Assembly: GCA_028284805.1 (NCBI GenBank)
Contig: JANQQZ010000133.1
Span: 1 to 64,000 of the forward strand
Reading direction: 5' to 3'
Length of the DNA: 64,000 nucleotides
Source of the DNA: Phycisphaerales bacterium
Lineage (GTDB): Bacteria > Planctomycetota > Phycisphaerae > Phycisphaerales > UBA1924
Shown here: one piece after another, positions 25,351-35,113 of the stretch
How positions within the stretch are numbered: position 1 is the stretch's first letter
Layout: the number at the start of each line of letters is the position of its first letter
Notes under the pieces: generated by a model
Databases searched by the model: none
The model's input: only the letters and a program-made list of their open reading frames with translations
Told to the model about the DNA's origin: nothing
Position numbers and translations under genes: made by a program

Positions 25351-28300
25351 TCAGGCCGTGCTGGGCGAAGGGTCGCCCGCGTCCGCGGCATCCCGGTGCT
25401 CGCGATCGGTCCGCCCCGACCAGACGAGCGGAGCCGCGACCGCGACCGAGGAGTACGTTCCAACGAGCACGCCGATCAGCAGTGTGTAGGAGAACGCCCG
25501 GACACCCTCGCCGCCCGACGTGAACAGGATCAGTACCGCGAGGAGTGTCGTCCCCGAGGTGATCACGGTACGGCTGACGGTCTGGTTGATCGACAGATTC
25601 ACGGTGCGGCGCGATGCGTAATCAAGCTTGCCCCGGTTCTCCCGGATGCGGTCCATGATGATGATGGTGTCGTTGAGCGAGTAGCCGATGATCGTGAGCA
25701 GCGCTGCCACCAGGCTCAGATCGATCTTGAACGGAAGGATGTTGAGGCTTCGGGCCAGGTTGGCGGTGGTCTCGTGCTCGTACAGAATCTCGGCGACCGC
25801 GATGAGACCGATCGCGATCATCACGTCGTGAACGAGCGCGACCAGGGCGGCCGCCGAGTATCGCACCGAACCGAAGCGAACCCAGATGTAGATCGTGATG
25901 AGCATGAAGCTGATCGCGACCGCCGCGATGGCGCGAGCACGGAAGGAGCCAGCGACCGATGCGTCGAAGCTGTCCACCCCCGCCAGTGACTCGGACCGCT
26001 TCAGGGCCTTGGTCACCAGATCCCATTCCGTTGAAGCTACCTCGTCGAACCAGCGATCGCGGCTGTCGTAGACAAGCAGCCCATCGTCGCGGACGACCAT
26101 CACAGCGGAACGCACCGCAGACTCGTCGCCTTCGATGATGAGCAGTTCCCACTCGCGGTTGAGGTAGTCGCTGAACTCGCGGTCGCGTCGCATGTACTCG
26201 AGCCGCTCGGTCAGGTCCTCCAGCGTTGGTGTTGGCTCGAGTTCCTCAACGACGATCGCCGCGCCGCCATCGAACTCGCTGACATCGGCAACTACATCAG
26301 ACCTCCCGATGACCGACGCGAGGCTGGGCTCGGTGACCTCGTAGACAGGCGCACTCCTCGCATCGGTCGTGGTATCCGCCTGGAACGAGAGCGGCGGCTT
26401 GGTCGGCAGCACGTCCTCGAACGCCTCCTGAAGCGCCGCCGAGAGAGCCGCCTGGGCCTCCGCCCCAGCTAGCAGCGACTTGATCCGGAAGATGTGAGAC
26501 GTCACCCCGTCGTCCTGGGGGTTGACGGGCAGCACCTCGGCCGTCGTGAGCAGCTTCAGGGGCGACTCATCCGGCGCAGCTTCCGCAATCGCCGACACCC
26601 GGTCCATGACCTGGGCACGCTCCATCGTTCTGGGGCTGCCCGTGTCGTCGTCGGCGAGGACCATCGTGACCGCGGTGCCGCCTCGGAACTCGTTGTCGAG
26701 CATCGTCGCCCCCTGGCGGACGATCATGAGCACGCCGAGACCGATGAGCGCTGCGGACACGACGAGGCAGAGCCGGCGGATGCGGAGCCAATCGAGATTG
26801 GGCTCGAGGGCCCGCTCGAGGGCAGGGATCGTGCGCGGCAGCGAACCCAGCCCCTTGATCCCGACACGTTCAACGAGAAGCGCAAAGATCAACCTCGACA
26901 CGACGAGCGCGCTGAAGAGCGTGCCCACGACGCCGATGCCCAGCGTGATCGCGAAGCCCTTGATCTCCTGGGTACCGATGTTGGCGAGCACGAGGCAGAC
27001 GATGAGGTTGGTCACGTTGCCGTCGACGATGGAGGAGAGGGCCTTGTCGAACCCAAGGCGAACCGCCGGCTTGAGGGCAATCCCCCTGCGGATCTCCTCG
27101 CGGATGCGCTCGAAGATCAGCACGTTGGCGTCGACCGCCATGCCGAAGGTCAGGATGATGCCCGCGATTCCAGGCAGCGTGAGCGCGGCGCGGCTCAGCG
27201 ACAGCATGGCCAGAATAATCAGCGCGTTGCACGCGAGCGCCGTCACCGCAATCAACCCACTGGTGTAGTAGTAGAACACCATGAAGACGCTCACGACGAT
27301 TAAGGCGATCAGGCCGGCCCGGAGGCCCGCGTCCAGGTTGTCCTGGCCGAGCTCGGGCCCCAGGATCGACTGGCTGATCGGTTGCGGCGTCAGGCTAGCC
27401 GAGAGCGTGCCGGCGTTGAGCGTGCGGATGATGTTGCGACGCTCGTCGGGCGCGTCGATCCCCTGGATGATGCCGTTGCTCGAGATCTTGGAGTTCAGAA
27501 CCGGTGCGGTGATCGTCTTGTTGTCAAGCAGGACGGCCATCCGCTGACCGACGTTCTGCTCGGTCAGGTTGCCGAGCAGAACCGCCCCGTTCGCGTCCAT
27601 GCGGAACCCGACGGCGGGACGCCCGCTGTCGTCGACGGTCTCGGAGGCCTGATCGACACGCCACGCGCCGAGGCTCTGGTCTTGCAGCAGCGCCTTGTCG
27701 CGGCTGCTGTAGAGCAGGATGTAGTACGCACCCTCGTAGGGCTCGACTACGAAGTCACGCGCCTGCGCGAAGTACCCTGCCGGATCGGCGAGCATCCGCT
27801 CGGCCTGCTGAATCGTGTTGACGCCCAGCGCAATCGGATCGGCGATCTCGAACCACTCGGCGTCCGGGGCGCTGGTCGCCCGCGGCCCCTGCTCGCGCAG
27901 CTCCTCGCGGAGCGTCTGCTCGTCGGGGTGCTCGTTCACTGTCGGCGCGATCCGGAACTCGAGCACGCCCGATCCCTGCAGAAGCCGGATGAGGTCGTTC
28001 GGGTCGTCGAGAGTGGTGCGTTCGTCCTCGTAGGTCTTCAGGGCCGCGATCACCTCGTCGATGAGGGCGACCTTGTCGGAGTGCGCGGTCTTGAGCTCCT
28101 CGATCGCGTTGGCGCGAGGGCTCGGGATCTCGAAGGCCTCATCCGCGCTGTCATCCAGAACGAAGCGAGGCTCGTTCGACAGCTGCAGCGCGTTGCGGAG
28201 TTGCTCCGCGCGGAGCACACTGCCGACCACGCCCTGCTTGGCCTGGTCGCGCCGGATCTCGGCCGCCGCGAGCTCCTGCACGATCTGGCGAATCCCGTCC

Positions 28301-28830
28301 GGGGGCGCGCCAGATTCTTCGGCCATCTCGAGGCGCTCCCGCGTCTCCTCGGCCTCTTCGGTGGTACGGATGACCTCGTCCAGCAGGGCACGACGCGACT
28401 GATCGTCGCCGGCCATCTCATCTGCCGCGGACCGGCGCTCGGCGCGCGGAAGCGACATCAGGCGTTCCACGTCACGCCCCGTGAGCTCGCGCTGCGCGAT
28501 CGTCTCCAGCTTGGCGAGGTACGCGGCACGGAGCGCCTTCACCTCGTCGCTGGGCAGGGGCATCGTGATCTCGATCCGGTCACGCCCCTGGGGCACGATC
28601 GAGATCTCGAGCAGGCCCTGCGGGTCAACACGATCCTTCAGGACCGTGATCGTGCGGCTCATGACGGCCGACGCGTCTTCGCTGCTGTCGATCTGGAGCT
28701 GATAGACCAGGCTGAAGCCGCCGCGGAGGTCCTTGCCCTGGCGAAGCTTCTCGCTCGGGGGCATGATCGACCAGACGGCGAGCACGAGCAGGCCGGCAAC
28801 GAGACAGAGGTTTCGGACGACGTTTCGCAT
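25351..28830 (-). CDS. secDF: Fused protein translocase SecDF
   Basis: 1159 aa; GIAGIILTFGMAVDANVLIFERIREE (SecD) and TIIGYSLNDTIIIMDRIREN (SecF). Confidence 0.96.
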   Translation of the reverse strand: MRNVVRNLCLVAGLLVLAVWSIMPPSEKLRQGKDLRGGFSLVYQLQIDSSEDASAVMSRTITVLKDRVDPQGLLEISIVPQGRDRIEITMPLPSDEVKALRAAYLAKLETIAQRELTGRDVERLMSLPRAERRSAADEMAGDDQSRRALLDEVIRTTEEAEETRERLEMAEESGAPPDGIRQIVQELAAAEIRRDQAKQGVVGSVLRAEQLRNALQLSNEPRFVLDDSADEAFEIPSPRANAIEELKTAHSDKVALIDEVIAALKTYEDERTTLDDPNDLIRLLQGSGVLEFRIAPTVNEHPDEQTLREELREQGPRATSAPDAEWFEIADPIALGVNTIQQAERMLADPAGYFAQARDFVVEPYEGAYYILLYSSRDKALLQDQSLGAWRVDQASETVDDSGRPAVGFRMDANGAVLLGNLTEQNVGQRMAVLLDNKTITAPVLNSKISSNGIIQGIDAPDERRNIIRTLNAGTLSASLTPQPISQSILGPELGQDNLDAGLRAGLIALIVVSVFMVFYYYTSGLIAVTALACNALIILAMLSLSRAALTLPGIAGIILTFGMAVDANVLIFERIREEIRRGIALKPAVRLGFDKALSSIVDGNVTNLIVCLVLANIGTQEIKGFAITLGIGVVGTLFSALVVSRLIFALLVERVGIKGLGSLPRTIPALERALEPNLDWLRIRRLCLVVSAALIGLGVLMIVRQGATMLDNEFRGGTAVTMVLADDDTGSPRTMERAQVMDRVSAIAEAAPDESPLKLLTTAEVLPVNPQDDGVTSHIFRIKSLLAGAEAQAALSAALQEAFEDVLPTKPPLSFQADTTTDARSAPVYEVTEPSLASVIGRSDVVADVSEFDGGAAIVVEELEPTPTLEDLTERLEYMRRDREFSDYLNREWELLIIEGDESAVRSAVMVVRDDGLLVYDSRDRWFDEVASTEWDLVTKALKRSESLAGVDSFDASVAGSFRARAIAAVAISFMLITIYIWVRFGSVRYSAAALVALVHDVMIAIGLIAVAEILYEHETTANLARSLNILPFKIDLSLVAALLTIIGYSLNDTIIIMDRIRENRGKLDYASRRTVNLSINQTVSRTVITSGTTLLAVLILFTSGGEGVRAFSYTLLIGVLVGTYSSVAVAAPLVWSGRTDREHRDAADAGDPSPSTA

Positions 28831-28866
28831 CGGGGCAGGTGTCCTGGGGGAGTCGGAGGACCGGGC

Positions 28867-29337
28867 TTAGCTCGGCTGGGTCGCGAGCTGCGGCTCGGCG
28901 GGGTGTTCTTCGATCTCGTCGGTCGAGCCCGGCGCCTCGCGGAGCACCTGCTGGACGGCGGCCTTCGAGTAGCGGGCCTTGGTCTTGGTCTGCTCGTCGA
29001 TGATGAGCACGACCTCATCATCTCGGACCTCGCTGATGGTCGCGATCAAGCCCCCGATCATCTGCACGCGGTCGTGCTTCTTGATCGACGCGAGCAGCGC
29101 GGCCTTGCGCTTCTTCTCCTTGCGCTGGGCGCCGCCCGAGAGGAAGATCATCAGGATCATCATGGCGATCAGGATGAAGAAGAAACCGCCGCCCAGGAAA
29201 CCGCCCGGGGCCGGCTGCTGGGGTTGCCCGCCCGCGGGGTCACCCGTGGTCGCACCGCCTTCGGCCGCCGGCACGGTCTGCGTCCCATCGGGCATGCCTG
29301 GGATCGTGGGCTGAGCATCTTGAAGCAGGATCATCAT
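28867..29337 (-). CDS. yajC: Preprotein translocase subunit YajC
   Basis: Single TM plus RKEKKRKAALLASIKKHDRVQMIGGLIATISEVRDDEVVLIIDE; upstream of secDF. Confidence 0.93.
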   Translation of the reverse strand: MMILLQDAQPTIPGMPDGTQTVPAAEGGATTGDPAGGQPQQPAPGGFLGGGFFFILIAMMILMIFLSGGAQRKEKKRKAALLASIKKHDRVQMIGGLIATISEVRDDEVVLIIDEQTKTKARYSKAAVQQVLREAPGSTDEIEEHPAEPQLATQPS

Positions 29338-30656
29338 GCGTCGGTCGTTTCCGTGTCGTCGGCGGGCTCGGGAGGAGCCTCGGACGCGAGTTCAGTGAGA
29401 CCAAGCCGGCCGAACAGGGCCGGATCGATGCCAGCGATCGCCACCGGCCACCGCCGGGCGAACGCGAGCCAATCATCTTCGCGGAGTGCCCGTCGGATGT
29501 CCAACATGAGCCGCTGAAAGTGACGCACATTGTGCAGGCTCACCAGGATGGGCCCGAGCATCTCCTCGGCTCGGAACAGGTGCCGAATCGTGCCCCTAGC
29601 GAAGCCGCGGCCGTCGGGCGTCGCGAGCCCATGACGCCCGGGATCACAGGCCGGGCAGTCGCAACCGGGTTCGATGACCTCTCGGTCACGCTCGTGGGCC
29701 TGGTTCTTGAGCCGCAGCGGGCCGGTCCGGGTGAAGGCGGTCGCCGATCGCCCGTTCCGGGTCGGCAGCACGCAGTCGAACATGTCCACCCCGGAGAGGA
29801 CCGCGGCGAGGATGTCCCGCTCGTAACCGACGCCCATCAGGTATCGGGGCTTGCTTGATGGCAGCATGGGGGCCGTGAACTCGACAACGCGGTGGATGTC
29901 CGCGGGCGATTCCCCCACAGCCACACCGCCGATTGCGTAACCAGGAAGATCGATCGCCCCGATCCGTTCGGCCGACCAGGCGCGTTCGCCCTCGTCCGTT
30001 CCTCCCTGCACGATGCCGAACAGCGCCTGCTCCTCGCTGCGCGCGTGAGCCTTCTTGCAACGCTCGAGCCAGCGGACGGTTCGCTCGTTCGAGGCGCGCA
30101 CACGAGCGGCATGGTCGTACTCCCCCCCGCGTGCGTCGCGAGCCGCGGCAAGCTTGAGACGCGTCTGGTTCACGGGGCCTGCGCTTGGATCGACCGAGGG
30201 TGGGCAGTCATCGAACGCCATGATGATGTCAGCCCCGAGCGCGTTCTGGATGCGCATCGATTCCTCGGGCGTCATCCGGATTGTCGAGCCGTCAACGATG
30301 GACTTGAACGAGACACCGTCCTCGTCGACCGCGTTCTTGTCCGCCATCGAGTAGGCCTGATACCCGCCCGAGTCGGTGAGGATCGGGCCCTGCCAGCCCA
30401 TCATCGCGTGCAGCCCGCCCAGTTCGGCGACCACGTCAGGGCCGGGGCGCAGCAGCAGGTGGTAGGTGTTGGCGAGCAGCACCTCACAGGCGCAGCCCCG
30501 GAGCAGCGATGGATAGAGCCCCTTGACGGTCGCCTTGGTGCCCACGGTCATGAACGCGGGCGTCTCGAAGGATCCGTTGGGTGTCTCGACCCGACCGATC
30601 CGTCCCCGGGTTCTGGCAGGGCTTTGCAGGATCTCGAAGCGGAGCGGGGCGTTCAC
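29334..30656 (-). CDS. tgt: tRNA-guanine transglycosylase
   Basis: LTDSGGYQ, FDDCPP, GIVQGG, MGVGYERDILAAVLSGVDMFDCVLPTRNGR. Confidence 0.96.
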   Translation of the reverse strand: MNAPLRFEILQSPARTRGRIGRVETPNGSFETPAFMTVGTKATVKGLYPSLLRGCACEVLLANTYHLLLRPGPDVVAELGGLHAMMGWQGPILTDSGGYQAYSMADKNAVDEDGVSFKSIVDGSTIRMTPEESMRIQNALGADIIMAFDDCPPSVDPSAGPVNQTRLKLAAARDARGGEYDHAARVRASNERTVRWLERCKKAHARSEEQALFGIVQGGTDEGERAWSAERIGAIDLPGYAIGGVAVGESPADIHRVVEFTAPMLPSSKPRYLMGVGYERDILAAVLSGVDMFDCVLPTRNGRSATAFTRTGPLRLKNQAHERDREVIEPGCDCPACDPGRHGLATPDGRGFARGTIRHLFRAEEMLGPILVSLHNVRHFQRLMLDIRRALREDDWLAFARRWPVAIAGIDPALFGRLGLTELASEAPPEPADDTETTDA

Positions 30657-31759
30657 GCGCTGTCTCGCGCGTCGCGTGACGCGCGCTCGAGCGTCTTCTT
30701 CTCACGGCTCGTGAGGCTGTGGAGGCCCTTCTCGTTGACCTTGGCGAGGATGCGGTCGACGTCCTGCTGCGAGGGCGCCTTGCCGCGTGGGCCGCGGGGC
30801 TGACGGCTGTTCTTGGGTGACGGCCCGATGCCGAAGTCAAGGAAGCCTCGGAGCAGATGCTGATTCCGGATGAAGTAGAAACCGGCAATGGCACCGCCCA
30901 GGTGTGCCGCGTCGCCCCCCGCGTTGCTCCCGCCCCTCAGGAGGTTGAAGGTAGCGAGCGCGACGTACCCGTAGGCGAGCCAGGACATCTTGAGCGGGAT
31001 CGGCGGGAAGAGCAGCATCACCCGCATGTCCGGAGCGATGCGCGCGCACGCCACGATCACGCCAAAGACCCCGGCCGAGGCACCGATCAGAGGCGTCCCC
31101 ATCGTCGTCATCCCGAGGGTGCCCGGGAGCGGAACGTTGAGCGCGCTCAGCCCAGCGAAGAGCAGATAGAGCAGCCCGCCGCCGATACCACAGATCAAGT
31201 AGTACGACAGATACTTCTTCCGCCCAAGGTACTGCTCGACCATGCCCCCGAAGATGAAGAGGCCGAACATGTTGAAGAACAGGTGCGTGATGTCGGCGTG
31301 CAGGAACTGAAACGTCACGACGCGCCAGACCTCCAGCGCCCGGAAGCCCTTCAGCAAAGAGAAATGCCCCCAGCCGTTCAGCGGGTGCCAGCTTCGGTAG
31401 TACTGCACCGCCGGATACACGGTCCCGTCGGCACCGACCGCGGCGATGGCCTGATTCGTTTCCGGATCGACCAGCGGGCGCGGCCAGGACGCACCAATCG
31501 GAACGTTGGGCGGTCTGGGCGTGTCAGCCGGCACCGCGCGGGCCGCGACATCGGCTGAGATCGTCTCCGGAATCACGCTGAGATCCGCGATATCCACCAC
31601 GGGCAGCCGCGCATCGACGACAAAGACCAACACGTTGATGATGATCAGCCAGCTCGTAACCGAGAGCTGTTTCGGTCGGAAGCTGACCCGTCCGAGACCG
31701 ATCCCACCGCCTCCGCCCCCGCGTCGGTCGTCGTAGTAATCGCGGTCGTGGATGCCCAT
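30653..31759 (-). CDS. Rhomboid intramembrane serine protease
   Basis: HADITHLFFNMFGLFIFG, GASAGVFGVIVA (catalytic Ser), DAAHLGGAIAGF (catalytic His). Confidence 0.94.
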   Translation of the reverse strand: MGIHDRDYYDDRRGGGGGGIGLGRVSFRPKQLSVTSWLIIINVLVFVVDARLPVVDIADLSVIPETISADVAARAVPADTPRPPNVPIGASWPRPLVDPETNQAIAAVGADGTVYPAVQYYRSWHPLNGWGHFSLLKGFRALEVWRVVTFQFLHADITHLFFNMFGLFIFGGMVEQYLGRKKYLSYYLICGIGGGLLYLLFAGLSALNVPLPGTLGMTTMGTPLIGASAGVFGVIVACARIAPDMRVMLLFPPIPLKMSWLAYGYVALATFNLLRGGSNAGGDAAHLGGAIAGFYFIRNQHLLRGFLDFGIGPSPKNSRQPRGPRGKAPSQQDVDRILAKVNEKGLHSLTSREKKTLERASRDARDSA

Positions 31760-31805
31760 GCGGCGTGTTGCTCCGTCGGTGGTGCGAGCCCGGTCCCCTG
31801 GGACT

Positions 31806-32771
31806 CTAGTGGTCGGTGCCCGCGGCCGAGGCCCGGTCGAGCACGCGGCGCTCTTCTTCCGAAAGGCTCTCCAGCCCTTGCTCACTGATCTTGCTCAGGA
31901 TCCGATCTACCTCCTGCCCGTCCGGCGGGCCCTCGGTGTCTGTGATCTCGGCAGGATCGGGCACGGGAGTCCATTCTGTGTCGCCAACGCCCAGGAACCG
32001 GGCCCGGGCGACTTCTTGCCAGCTGACGAACGCGCCGATGATCGCGATGCCGAGCAGCGCGGTCTCGTTGGCGACCAGCCCCACGGCAGCGAGGACCGCC
32101 GCAGCAATCAGCCCCACCACGCCGGAGAGCCGCGCGCCCTGGGTTTCGCCTCGGAGCCTCCACGCGGCGGCCTGCACGAGCCGACCCGCGTCGAGCGGGG
32201 GCATGGGCACGAGTAGGTTGAACGCCAGAAGCATGAGGTTGTTGGCGTGCAGCGACCAGACGAGCCATGCGCCGAGCCCCTCGGTCAGGGCCGCACGCGC
32301 GGCGTCCTGGTACCCGAACGGCGCGAAGAAGACCAGCTCCCACGAGCCCGTCATCCATAGCACCAGGGCAGCGAGCGGAGCGAGCAGCAGCAGGTTCACA
32401 AAGGGCCCCGCGGCGGCGATGCGCACGAGCTGACCGGCGCGCTCCGGCTGGTCGCCGTGGTCCAGCCCACCAAGCGGCCAGAGCACCAGACGGTCGTGCA
32501 AGACTCCGGCGCGCCGCGCCGCCAGAGCATGACCGAGCTCGTGCATGAACACCAGCAGCACCAACCCGACCAGCCCGGCGATCTGGAACACGAGCCCAGC
32601 CTGCTCGGTTTGGATCGACTGAATGAGGCGCACCGCGACGAAGACCAAGAGCACAAGGTGCACACGCACCACTAGCCCGGGCAGACGCGCGACCGGCAGG
32701 GACCATGTCAGCGGGTTCTCGCCGTCCCCGAAGACTCGTCCGAGCCAGGATGTACGCCGCGGCTCATTCAC
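31806..32771 (-). CDS. Site-2-protease-like M50 intramembrane metallopeptidase
   Basis: VFMHELGHALAARRAGV (HExxH in TM) and LLVPMPPLDAGRL second motif. Confidence 0.92.
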   Translation of the reverse strand: MNEPRRTSWLGRVFGDGENPLTWSLPVARLPGLVVRVHLVLLVFVAVRLIQSIQTEQAGLVFQIAGLVGLVLLVFMHELGHALAARRAGVLHDRLVLWPLGGLDHGDQPERAGQLVRIAAAGPFVNLLLLAPLAALVLWMTGSWELVFFAPFGYQDAARAALTEGLGAWLVWSLHANNLMLLAFNLLVPMPPLDAGRLVQAAAWRLRGETQGARLSGVVGLIAAAVLAAVGLVANETALLGIAIIGAFVSWQEVARARFLGVGDTEWTPVPDPAEITDTEGPPDGQEVDRILSKISEQGLESLSEEERRVLDRASAAGTDH

Positions 32772-33349
32772 GTTCCGGGCCCGGGATCAGTCAGAACGTC
32801 GGGCGGGAGCACGCCCCGGATGACCGCGAGCGCGAGCGCGGTGAGCGACTTGCCGTCCATGATCTCGCCGCGATCGATCATGCCCCGGATCTCGCCGATG
32901 CTCACCCTCACAACCTCGATGTCCTCATCGTCCTCGGGCGAGGGCTCGGTGTACCCGAGATCGGTCGCGACGAACGCGTGCATCAGCTCGTTGCTCATGC
33001 CCGGCGACGTGTAGAACCGCCCGAGGGCCGTGACCGTTGCGGCCTGGTAGCCGGTTTCCTCTTCCAACTCGCGCGCAGCGCACCCGAAGGGGTTCTCGTG
33101 AGGCTCGAGCGTGCCGGCGGGCAGCTCGAGCACGCGTTCCCCCGGGGCGTGCCTGAGCTGCCTGACGAAGAGCAGCGCGTCCCCGGTGTCCTCACGGAGA
33201 ATCGGCACGAGGATGACCGCGCCGGGGTGACGCACGATCTCTCGCTCGATCGGGCGACCCGATCGTCCGGTGGTCGTCATCACGGCGAAGTCGAACTTTC
33301 GCCCGCGGTGGATCAATCGTTCCGGAGGGGTGGACTGCTGCTCGCCCAT
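32768..33349 (-). CDS. NUDIX hydrolase (ADP-ribose pyrophosphatase-like)
   Basis: ELPAGTLEPHENPFGCAARELEEETGYQA Nudix box (slightly variant). Confidence 0.9.
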   Translation of the reverse strand: MGEQQSTPPERLIHRGRKFDFAVMTTTGRSGRPIEREIVRHPGAVILVPILREDTGDALLFVRQLRHAPGERVLELPAGTLEPHENPFGCAARELEEETGYQAATVTALGRFYTSPGMSNELMHAFVATDLGYTEPSPEDDEDIEVVRVSIGEIRGMIDRGEIMDGKSLTALALAVIRGVLPPDVLTDPGPGT

Positions 33350-33364
33350 GGTCAGAATCGTACC

Positions 33365-34138
33365 GTGCCGGATCCGCAAGCCCATTCTGACGCCGTGATT
33401 CGCCTGCGGGGGCTTCGGAAGTCATTCGATGGGACGCCCGTGCTGCAGGGCGTCGATCTGGATCTGCCCAGCGGCAAGACCACCGTCGTCGTCGGCCCCT
33501 CCGGCTGCGGAAAGTCGGTCATGCTCAAGCACATCGTCGGGCTGCTCCGCCCCGATTCGGGTGAGGTCTGGTTCCACGACACCCGGATCGACACCCTGCC
33601 CGAACGCCGGCTCGGCCCGATCCGAACACGGATCGGCTTTCTGTTCCAGCTCTCGGCACTGTTCGACTCGCTCACCGTGGGCGAGAACCTCGCGTTCCCG
33701 CTTCGCGAGAACCGTACCCATTCGGGCGCGGGCTTCGAAGACCGGGTCCGCGAGGCGCTGGAGATGGTCGACATGGCCGGCAGCGAACACAAGCTCCCCG
33801 CCGAGCTCTCGGGCGGGCAGAAGAAGCGGGTCGCGCTCGCCCGCGCGATCATGCTCGAGCCCGAGGTGGTGCTCTACGACGAGCCGACCACCGGGCTCGA
33901 CCCCGAGCGGGCCAAGGGGATCGACGATCTCGTGATCCGTCTCAAGGACAGGCTCGGGGTCACCGGGTTGGTTGTGACACACGACATCGTGAGCGCACGA
34001 CGCGTCGCCGATCGGATCGTGATGCTGGACCGAGGGCGTGTCATCGCGCAGGGGAGCTTCGAGGATTTGGTACGATCGGACGAGCCGCGGGTGCGGTCAT
34101 TCTTCGAGGCCGCCGGGCACGCGGCCTCCATCTCCTAG
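33365..34138 (+). CDS. mlaF: ABC transporter ATPase, MlaF-like
   Basis: Walker A GPSGCGKSVMLKHIVGLL; IGFLFQLSALFDSLTVGENLAFPLREN; signature LSGGQKKRVALARAI; followed by MlaD. Confidence 0.9.
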   Translation: MPDPQAHSDAVIRLRGLRKSFDGTPVLQGVDLDLPSGKTTVVVGPSGCGKSVMLKHIVGLLRPDSGEVWFHDTRIDTLPERRLGPIRTRIGFLFQLSALFDSLTVGENLAFPLRENRTHSGAGFEDRVREALEMVDMAGSEHKLPAELSGGQKKRVALARAIMLEPEVVLYDEPTTGLDPERAKGIDDLVIRLKDRLGVTGLVVTHDIVSARRVADRIVMLDRGRVIAQGSFEDLVRSDEPRVRSFFEAAGHAASIS

Positions 34139-34159
34139 GTGGCGGTTCAAGGAGGACGC

Positions 34160-35113
34160 ATGAAATCCACGGGACGCGACGTCTTGATCGGGCTGACCGC
34201 GGTCGGGGGGCTCCTGGTGCTGGCGTGGATGCTCATGCGCTTCGGCGAGCTCGCGGGCGTGGGCGTCCAGCACAGCCGCGTTGAGCTGCGCCTCGAGTCG
34301 GCACGAGGGATCTCCCCCGTCGCGCCGGTGACGTACCGCGGCGTGCGCATCGGCGACGTCACGGGCATCCGGCTCGCCGACGATGCCAGCGGCGATGCGC
34401 TCGTGAGCGTGCGCTACCGGGCAGACGCCTCGCTCCCGACCGAGTTCGATATCTTCCTGGACGCGAGCTTCGTGGGCGAGGCCAAGCTCGACATCGAGCC
34501 CCGCGAGACCTGGGACGGGTCGTTCGCTCCGGGCGAGGGCGAGGAGTACGCGGTCGCGGTCCGCTCGCTCACCTCCGTGCTCCAGAGCGAGGTCGTCGGA
34601 CGTCTCGACCAGCTCAGCCAGACCGCCGACCGCATCGACACGCTTGCCGAGACGTACACGGATGTCGGCGAGCGGCTGGCCGGCGTGCTCGACAGCGACG
34701 AGCCGGGCGAGCGCGACCTAAGGGCGACACTGGAGCGCATCGAGGGTGTGCTGACGCAGGCCGAGGCCTGGCTCGACGAGGGGGCCCTGCTCTCCGACAC
34801 ACGCGACGCGATCGGACGATTCGAAGAAGCAGCGCAGGTCATCAGCGACGAGACGCGGGCGATCCGCGAGCGGACCGAGACCACGCTCGATGCCGCCGAC
34901 CGGGCCCTGCTCACGATCGACGAGGCCGGCGGTGAGGTCAACGAGCTCGTCGCCCGGATGAACCGGGGCGAGGGCACCCTCGGACAGCTCGCGACCAACC
35001 CCGATCTGTTCAACTCGCTCAACGCCGTCGTCGAAGAGCTGCGCACGCTGCTCCAGGACGCACGGCTCCTTATCGAGAAGTACCGTGATGAAGGCGTCCC
35101 GATCAACCTCTAA
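34160..35113 (+). CDS. mlaD: MlaD/MCE family lipid-binding protein
   Basis: N-terminal TM then MCE domain (VTYRGVRIGDVTGIRL) and coiled-coil. Confidence 0.88.
   Translation: MKSTGRDVLIGLTAVGGLLVLAWMLMRFGELAGVGVQHSRVELRLESARGISPVAPVTYRGVRIGDVTGIRLADDASGDALVSVRYRADASLPTEFDIFLDASFVGEAKLDIEPRETWDGSFAPGEGEEYAVAVRSLTSVLQSEVVGRLDQLSQTADRIDTLAETYTDVGERLAGVLDSDEPGERDLRATLERIEGVLTQAEAWLDEGALLSDTRDAIGRFEEAAQVISDETRAIRERTETTLDAADRALLTIDEAGGEVNELVARMNRGEGTLGQLATNPDLFNSLNAVVEELRTLLQDARLLIEKYRDEGVPINL

Follow-up and report, generated by a model that had tools for sequence, protein, structure and literature searches.

The window analysed here is a stretch of 64,000 nucleotides from a Phycisphaerales bacterium (Planctomycetota). 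A run of genes on its minus strand encodes a NUDIX hydrolase, an M50 (site-2) intramembrane metalloprotease, a rhomboid intramembrane serine protease and tgt-like, yajC-like and secDF-like products, with several overlaps of a few bases (Table 1). The M50 protein carries the HELGH and PPLDAGR motifs and belongs to the site-2 protease/M50 family (PF02163) by sequence and fold match; the rhomboid (PF01694, S54) carries both motifs of the catalytic dyad, GASAG (Ser) and HLGG (His). The catalytic motifs are thus intact in both proteases. The rhomboid frame spans positions 30653-31885, its GTG opening at 31885 sitting within the M50 gene; we prefer the downstream ATG at 31759 as the putative start, because the resulting N-terminus, MGIHDRDYY, resembles that of relatives. 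Divergent from the NUDIX gene lie an ABC ATPase gene and then an MCE-type gene (32705-35113, plus strand), named by recognition from sequence; 14 of the 40 neighbourhoods from the order have this pair close to the operon.

Table 1. Position of the two tailed proteases, their operon neighbours and selected DUF6576 carriers from other genomes. Coordinates are those of the window unless a locus is given.
Feature	Coordinates	Strand	Basis
M50 (site-2) intramembrane metalloprotease, 321 aa, DUF6576 at C-terminus	31806..32771	-	PF02163, 59.8 bits
DUF6576 tail of the M50 protease, EVDRILSKISEQGLESLSEEERRVLDRAS	31827..31916	-	PF20216 match, whole-genome profile search
Intact HELGH zinc motif, M50 protease	32529..32543	-	alignment of tailed M50s
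Rhomboid intramembrane serine protease, 368 aa, DUF6576 at C-terminus	30653..31759	-	PF01694, 93.7 bits
DUF6576 tail of the rhomboid, DVDRILAKVNEKGLHSLTSREKKTLERAS	30674..30781	-	PF20216 match
Intact GASAG motif with the active-site serine, rhomboid	31070..31084	-	sequence and rhomboid alignment
NUDIX hydrolase gene, overlaps M50 start	32768..33385	-	PF00293
tgt-like gene, overlaps rhomboid stop	29334..30656	-	named by recognition from sequence
yajC-like and secDF-like genes, further downstream in this run	25351..29337	-	named by recognition from sequence
Site-2 protease homologue, QQFAQ for HExxH, tail intact	L102:3001-4074	+	
Site-2 protease homologue, REITR for HExxH, tail intact	L062:4918-6000	+	
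Site-2 protease homologue, KELAR for HExxH, tail intact	L063:7637-8920	-	
Site-2 protease homologue, REAAR for HExxH, tail intact	L086:7141-8397	-	
One-helix DUF6576 protein, Bacteroidota	L340:5589-5846	+	predicted helix
One-helix DUF6576 protein, Bacteroidota	L341:5181-5432	-	predicted helix
One-helix DUF6576 protein, Bacteroidota	L342:5288-5611	-	predicted helix
One-helix DUF6576 protein, Bacteroidota	L347:6632-7090	+	predicted helix

The initial annotation had proposed that the adjacent rhomboid and M50 protease end in homologous segments, and had suggested DUF6576 as the identity of this tail. Both claims were borne out: the two peptides that it quoted are exact, the genes lie where it placed them, and the tails match PF20216 (DUF6576) with 42.1 bits (E 9.8e-11) for the rhomboid and 36.5 bits (E 5.2e-9) for the M50 protease, where the curated threshold is 27.3 bits. 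Direct BLASTP comparison of the two proteins gave an alignment confined to the C-termini (34/91 identical residues, E 3e-11). A genome-wide profile search returned exactly two copies of DUF6576, those of the window pair. With this pair included, the genome encodes two rhomboids and has about six open frames of M50 type; none of the paralogues read had a tail. A plasmid search with the M50 tail matched nothing. Since only two copies exist in the genome, the paralogues read are tailless and the matches are significant, the tails are neither a chance likeness nor the ubiquitous, composition-biased helix that the annotation had feared. The result for Pseudomonadota, where DUF6576 passed the cut-off in 0 of 100 genomes, likewise counts against chance likeness or a low-complexity helix. 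A SHOCT-like oligomerisation tail was not supported by profile comparison of 74 tails: all of them (74/74) matched PF20216, SHOCT was absent from the 25 families listed for them, and a single tail matched the SHOCT-like DUF1707 weakly (E 0.03).

The tail is kept across the order, contrary to the other failure that had been envisaged, its absence from orthologues. DUF6576 was found above cut-off in all 61 order genomes searched, and in 46 of these two copies lie less than 1.5 kb apart, some of the second copies scoring below the cut-off; the close pair of one genome (G044) consists of two rhomboids. Within the 40 order neighbourhoods fetched, every M50 gene (28/28) carries the tail and tailless M50s number zero. 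At 23 of these 40 loci the M50 and rhomboid genes, both tailed, occur together, in either gene order. The NUDIX gene was found in 31/40 neighbourhoods, tgt in 29/40 and yajC/secDF in 28/40. In two genomes (G013, G051) the tailed M50 lies far from the tailed rhomboid and both tails are kept. Tandem rhomboids with a tailless upstream and a tailed downstream copy were seen at two loci of the order (L098, L099) and at three of Bacteroidota (L344, L355, L358).

The proximity of tailed genes in most order genomes, and the restriction of the tail to the window pair among a few paralogues, would suit a direct association of the tails, in which hairpins pair as a four-helix bundle and hold the rhomboid and the M50 protease, or two like copies, in one complex. 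Two-helix hairpins often fold by pairing, and a hairpin as small as that predicted for the tail (see below) could equally self-associate. We nevertheless regard this main rival to a docking function as unlikely, as the tail persists even when the M50 and rhomboid genes are apart, and because of its wider distribution. In Bacteroidota, DUF6576 passed the cut-off in 118/118 genomes, nearly always as a single copy. Since almost all of these genomes have one tailed protein, pairing of unlike tails cannot be the general role, which leaves only pairing of like copies there.

Beyond Bacteroidota, DUF6576 passed the cut-off in 92/115 genomes of Verrucomicrobiota, 4/39 of the phylum of an Eisenbacteria genome, 1/61 of Chloroflexota and 0/60 of Acidobacteriota, each phylum sample being named after the genome at its centre. 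Among the carriers read from Verrucomicrobiota (about 50) and Bacteroidota (about 45), nearly all were rhomboids or rhomboid-like proteins without GxSG, and none was an M50 protein. A few Bacteroidota carriers consist of one membrane helix, a basic stretch and then the tail (L290, L292, L293, and similarly L347). The one-helix genes of L340 and L341 adjoin ileS-like and dksA-like genes, and in the corresponding genomes (G528 and G445) rhomboids are present and untailed, DUF6576 being found only on the one-helix protein; these tails without a protease also speak against the assembly of the two enzymes through their hairpins. One further hit, in a soluble TPR-type protein (L339), falls within a long protein and was judged a chance match.

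DUF6576 exceeded the cut-off in 221 of 246 genomes sampled across Planctomycetota. Of the 126 tails read (L061-L160), 74 belong to rhomboid-fold proteins and 52 to M50 proteins, and each forms the C-terminus; at one locus (L112), neighbouring M50 genes of a single planctomycete genome (2984-3964 and 4393-5343, plus strand) are both tailed. The tail is the best-conserved part of these proteins, with a mean of 2.66 (M50) and 2.70 (rhomboid) bits per column; the linker before it averages 1.24 and 1.10, and the rest 1.79 and 1.44. These figures are inflated because the alignment members were selected by their tail, the neighbourhood count (28/28) being less biased. All five invariant columns of the rhomboid alignment fall inside the tail, whose invariant positions include Leu, Gly and Lys. 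The last few residues beyond the hairpin vary freely among carriers.

The tail may act as a degradation or localisation signal, as the initial annotation had also suggested. A housekeeping protease or chaperone would then recognise the hairpin and set the level of its bearer, which would fit the extreme C-terminal placement in nearly all carriers, proteins that share a membrane location rather than a chemistry. Most degrons, however, require less than a folded and strongly conserved hairpin of about 30 residues, the residues past this hairpin are the freely variable ones, and only some paralogues are tailed; a stability tag thus seems very unlikely to us.

Predicted models (AlphaFold) of the two window proteins have mean pLDDT values of 90 and 88. 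In the M50 model, a low-confidence linker is followed by a two-helix hairpin (residues 284-298 and 305-320, pLDDT around 95); the rhomboid model likewise ends in a confident hairpin (helices 331-344 and 351-367) after a low-confidence linker. No solved structure credibly resembled the tail by sequence. The nearest folds to the M50 model are those of mjS2P (3b4r, E 3e-8) and SpoIVFB (8vjl). The C-terminal CBS domain of SpoIVFB is cytoplasmic (PMC6242693); by analogy with such homologues, and from charge, the tail would therefore be on the cytosolic side.

In an M50 search of species genomes, the tailed M50s came from Planctomycetota, and homologues without a tail were returned from Verrucomicrobiota, Bacteroidota, Chloroflexota, Pseudomonadota and others. 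CBS domains were matched in all six tailless homologues scanned, five of them above the curated cut-off, and a planctomycete that has a tailed M50 also encodes a tailless, CBS-bearing one (L237, L204). The window M50 gave no CBS match and so lacks the C-terminal cytosolic CBS module that defines group 3; in the sample, CBS and tail are mutually exclusive. In a tree of 132 M50 cores, built without the tail and CBS columns by a quick search under a simple model and containing several long branches, one branch (SH-aLRT 98) separates the 77 tailed rows from all others, and the tailless homologues closest to them have CBS domains at their C-termini. This topology and the CBS-ended neighbours suggest that in a group-3 site-2 protease DUF6576 replaced the CBS module, probably once; the simplest account is that the tail was gained a single time and CBS was lost.

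Within the order, the nearest tail belonged to the same protein class for 21 of 28 M50 tails and 34 of 36 rhomboid tails (55/64 in total), ruling out recent copying within the operon or gene conversion. Judged from sequence, the transfer of the tail is an old event that has been kept vertically since, and DUF6576 on rhomboids predates the tail of M50 proteins. The domain transfer envisaged in the initial annotation thus gains support from the single branch, the CBS-ended relatives and those phyla that yielded tailed rhomboids but no tailed M50. Within a genome, the two tails were barely more alike than between genomes (2.27 versus 2.16; permutation p 0.02, uncorrected for phylogeny), so coevolution does not demonstrate a shared partner.

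The position of the tail, which in M50 proteins occupies the place of the CBS module of the closest tailless relatives, raises the possibility of an intramolecular regulator that would fold onto the membrane core, gate substrate access and so inherit the role of CBS in group-3 site-2 proteases. Yet two unrelated cores share this tail, enzymes that have lost catalysis carry it as well, and on one-helix proteins it would have nothing to gate; the linker also has low model confidence. We therefore rate this possibility as highly improbable.

Retention of the tail was indeed independent of catalysis. HExxH and the Asp are kept in 40 of 51 tailed M50s, and the zinc motif or the Asp is broken in the other 11, with degenerate motifs, placed in the alignment by profile, such as RExxR, HExxR, HExxK, KExxR, QQxxQ and HAxxH. 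On the tree these losses amount to at least three to four changes, an exact count being uncertain owing to long branches. Four such homologues with intact tails (L102, L062, L063 and L086, Table 1) are likely bacterial S2P pseudoproteases. Similarly, Ser or His is missing from 9 of 63 tailed rhomboids. Tail scores hardly differed: M50 tails of the order averaged 55.9 bits where catalysis is kept and 54.2 where it is lost, compared with 54.8 and 55.7 bits, respectively, in other rhomboids.

A docking handle appears to be the best reading of the tail, because it is common to unrelated cores, indifferent to catalysis and present on one-helix proteins. We thus tentatively propose, as quite possible, that the tail is a cytosolic handle recruiting both proteases to a common partner, which would also best fit the data among the readings offered in the initial annotation. 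The replacement of CBS, the persistence of tails on inactive M50s and rhomboids, and the one-helix carriers go beyond what that annotation had anticipated. The two-helix module would fold independently on its flexible cytosolic linker. The handle would have belonged first to rhomboids in FCB/PVC bacteria; a group-3 site-2 protease of a planctomycetotal ancestor may have acquired it instead of its CBS module, and in Phycisphaerales-like genomes the tailed M50 and the tailed rhomboid now share one operon. Through the handle, the two enzymes and relatives that have lost catalysis would all reach a single partner in the cytosol. The likeliest candidate is a factor in membrane-protein quality control, for instance an AAA+ protease or its adaptor; membrane clients would then be cut, or merely held and handed on. 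We infer the docking function as well as the identity and the sharing of this partner.

A working model for the tail, by analogy, is YqgP of Bacillus subtilis, a rhomboid that is both a protease and an FtsH adaptor, presents a transporter to FtsH whether active or inactive, and requires a cytosolic domain for this adaptor role (PMC7231995). This domain, however, is N-terminal and of another fold, whereas the window tail is C-terminal, and the parallel with FtsH would be one of analogy. Active and inactive eukaryotic rhomboids (RHBDL4, RHBDD3, UBAC2) bear C-terminal ubiquitin-binding extensions (PMC12615303). They resemble the tailed proteins in that a small docking domain is common to active and inactive members; however, no sequence relation to DUF6576 was found and ubiquitin is not expected as the partner here. 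More broadly, one helical tail on rhomboids, site-2 proteases and their pseudoproteases could amount to a dedicated recruitment code of FCB/PVC bacteria for handing membrane clients to a single quality-control machine in the cytosol, the bacterial equivalent of what ubiquitin-binding tails do for ERAD rhomboids, an idea that we consider doubtful. To our knowledge, such ubiquitin-binding extensions do not occur on site-2 proteases.

DUF6576 and the rhomboid and M50 families are already known. The rhomboids of Bacteroidota and Verrucomicrobiota carry the same domain above cut-off at the same C-terminal place as the window rhomboid; the window differs in that an unrelated M50 protein of the same operon carries it too. 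The window M50 shares its membrane core family and closest fold with the group-3 proteases SpoIVFB (Bacillus subtilis) and mjS2P, but it bears DUF6576 instead of a C-terminal CBS domain and several of its tailed relatives are catalytically dead. In the literature searched, DUF6576 is unnamed, nothing was found on a rhomboid and a site-2 protease in planctomycetes, and DUF6576 on a site-2 protease, the exchange with CBS and the retention on both pseudoprotease folds are absent. Pfam's own list of domain architectures may already include DUF6576 together with M50. How bacterial intramembrane proteases are recruited or regulated is mostly unknown. One tail on two mechanistically unrelated families, kept through repeated catalytic loss and apparently swapped for CBS, points to a common partner and provides a bait of about 35 residues to find it. 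The tailed families also offer bacterial site-2 and rhomboid pseudoproteases in which to study the change from protease to adaptor, and since DUF6576 is near-universal in Bacteroidota, its function is testable in tractable bacteria.

Many tailed rhomboids and pseudo-rhomboids of planctomycetes share a second terminal feature, a short N-terminal motif resembling MGxxDRDYxR. It is found in the window at 31733-31759 (minus strand) and at L126, L134, L136, L138, L158, L159 and L160; a strict test for DRDY was positive in 23 of the 74 tailed rhomboids.
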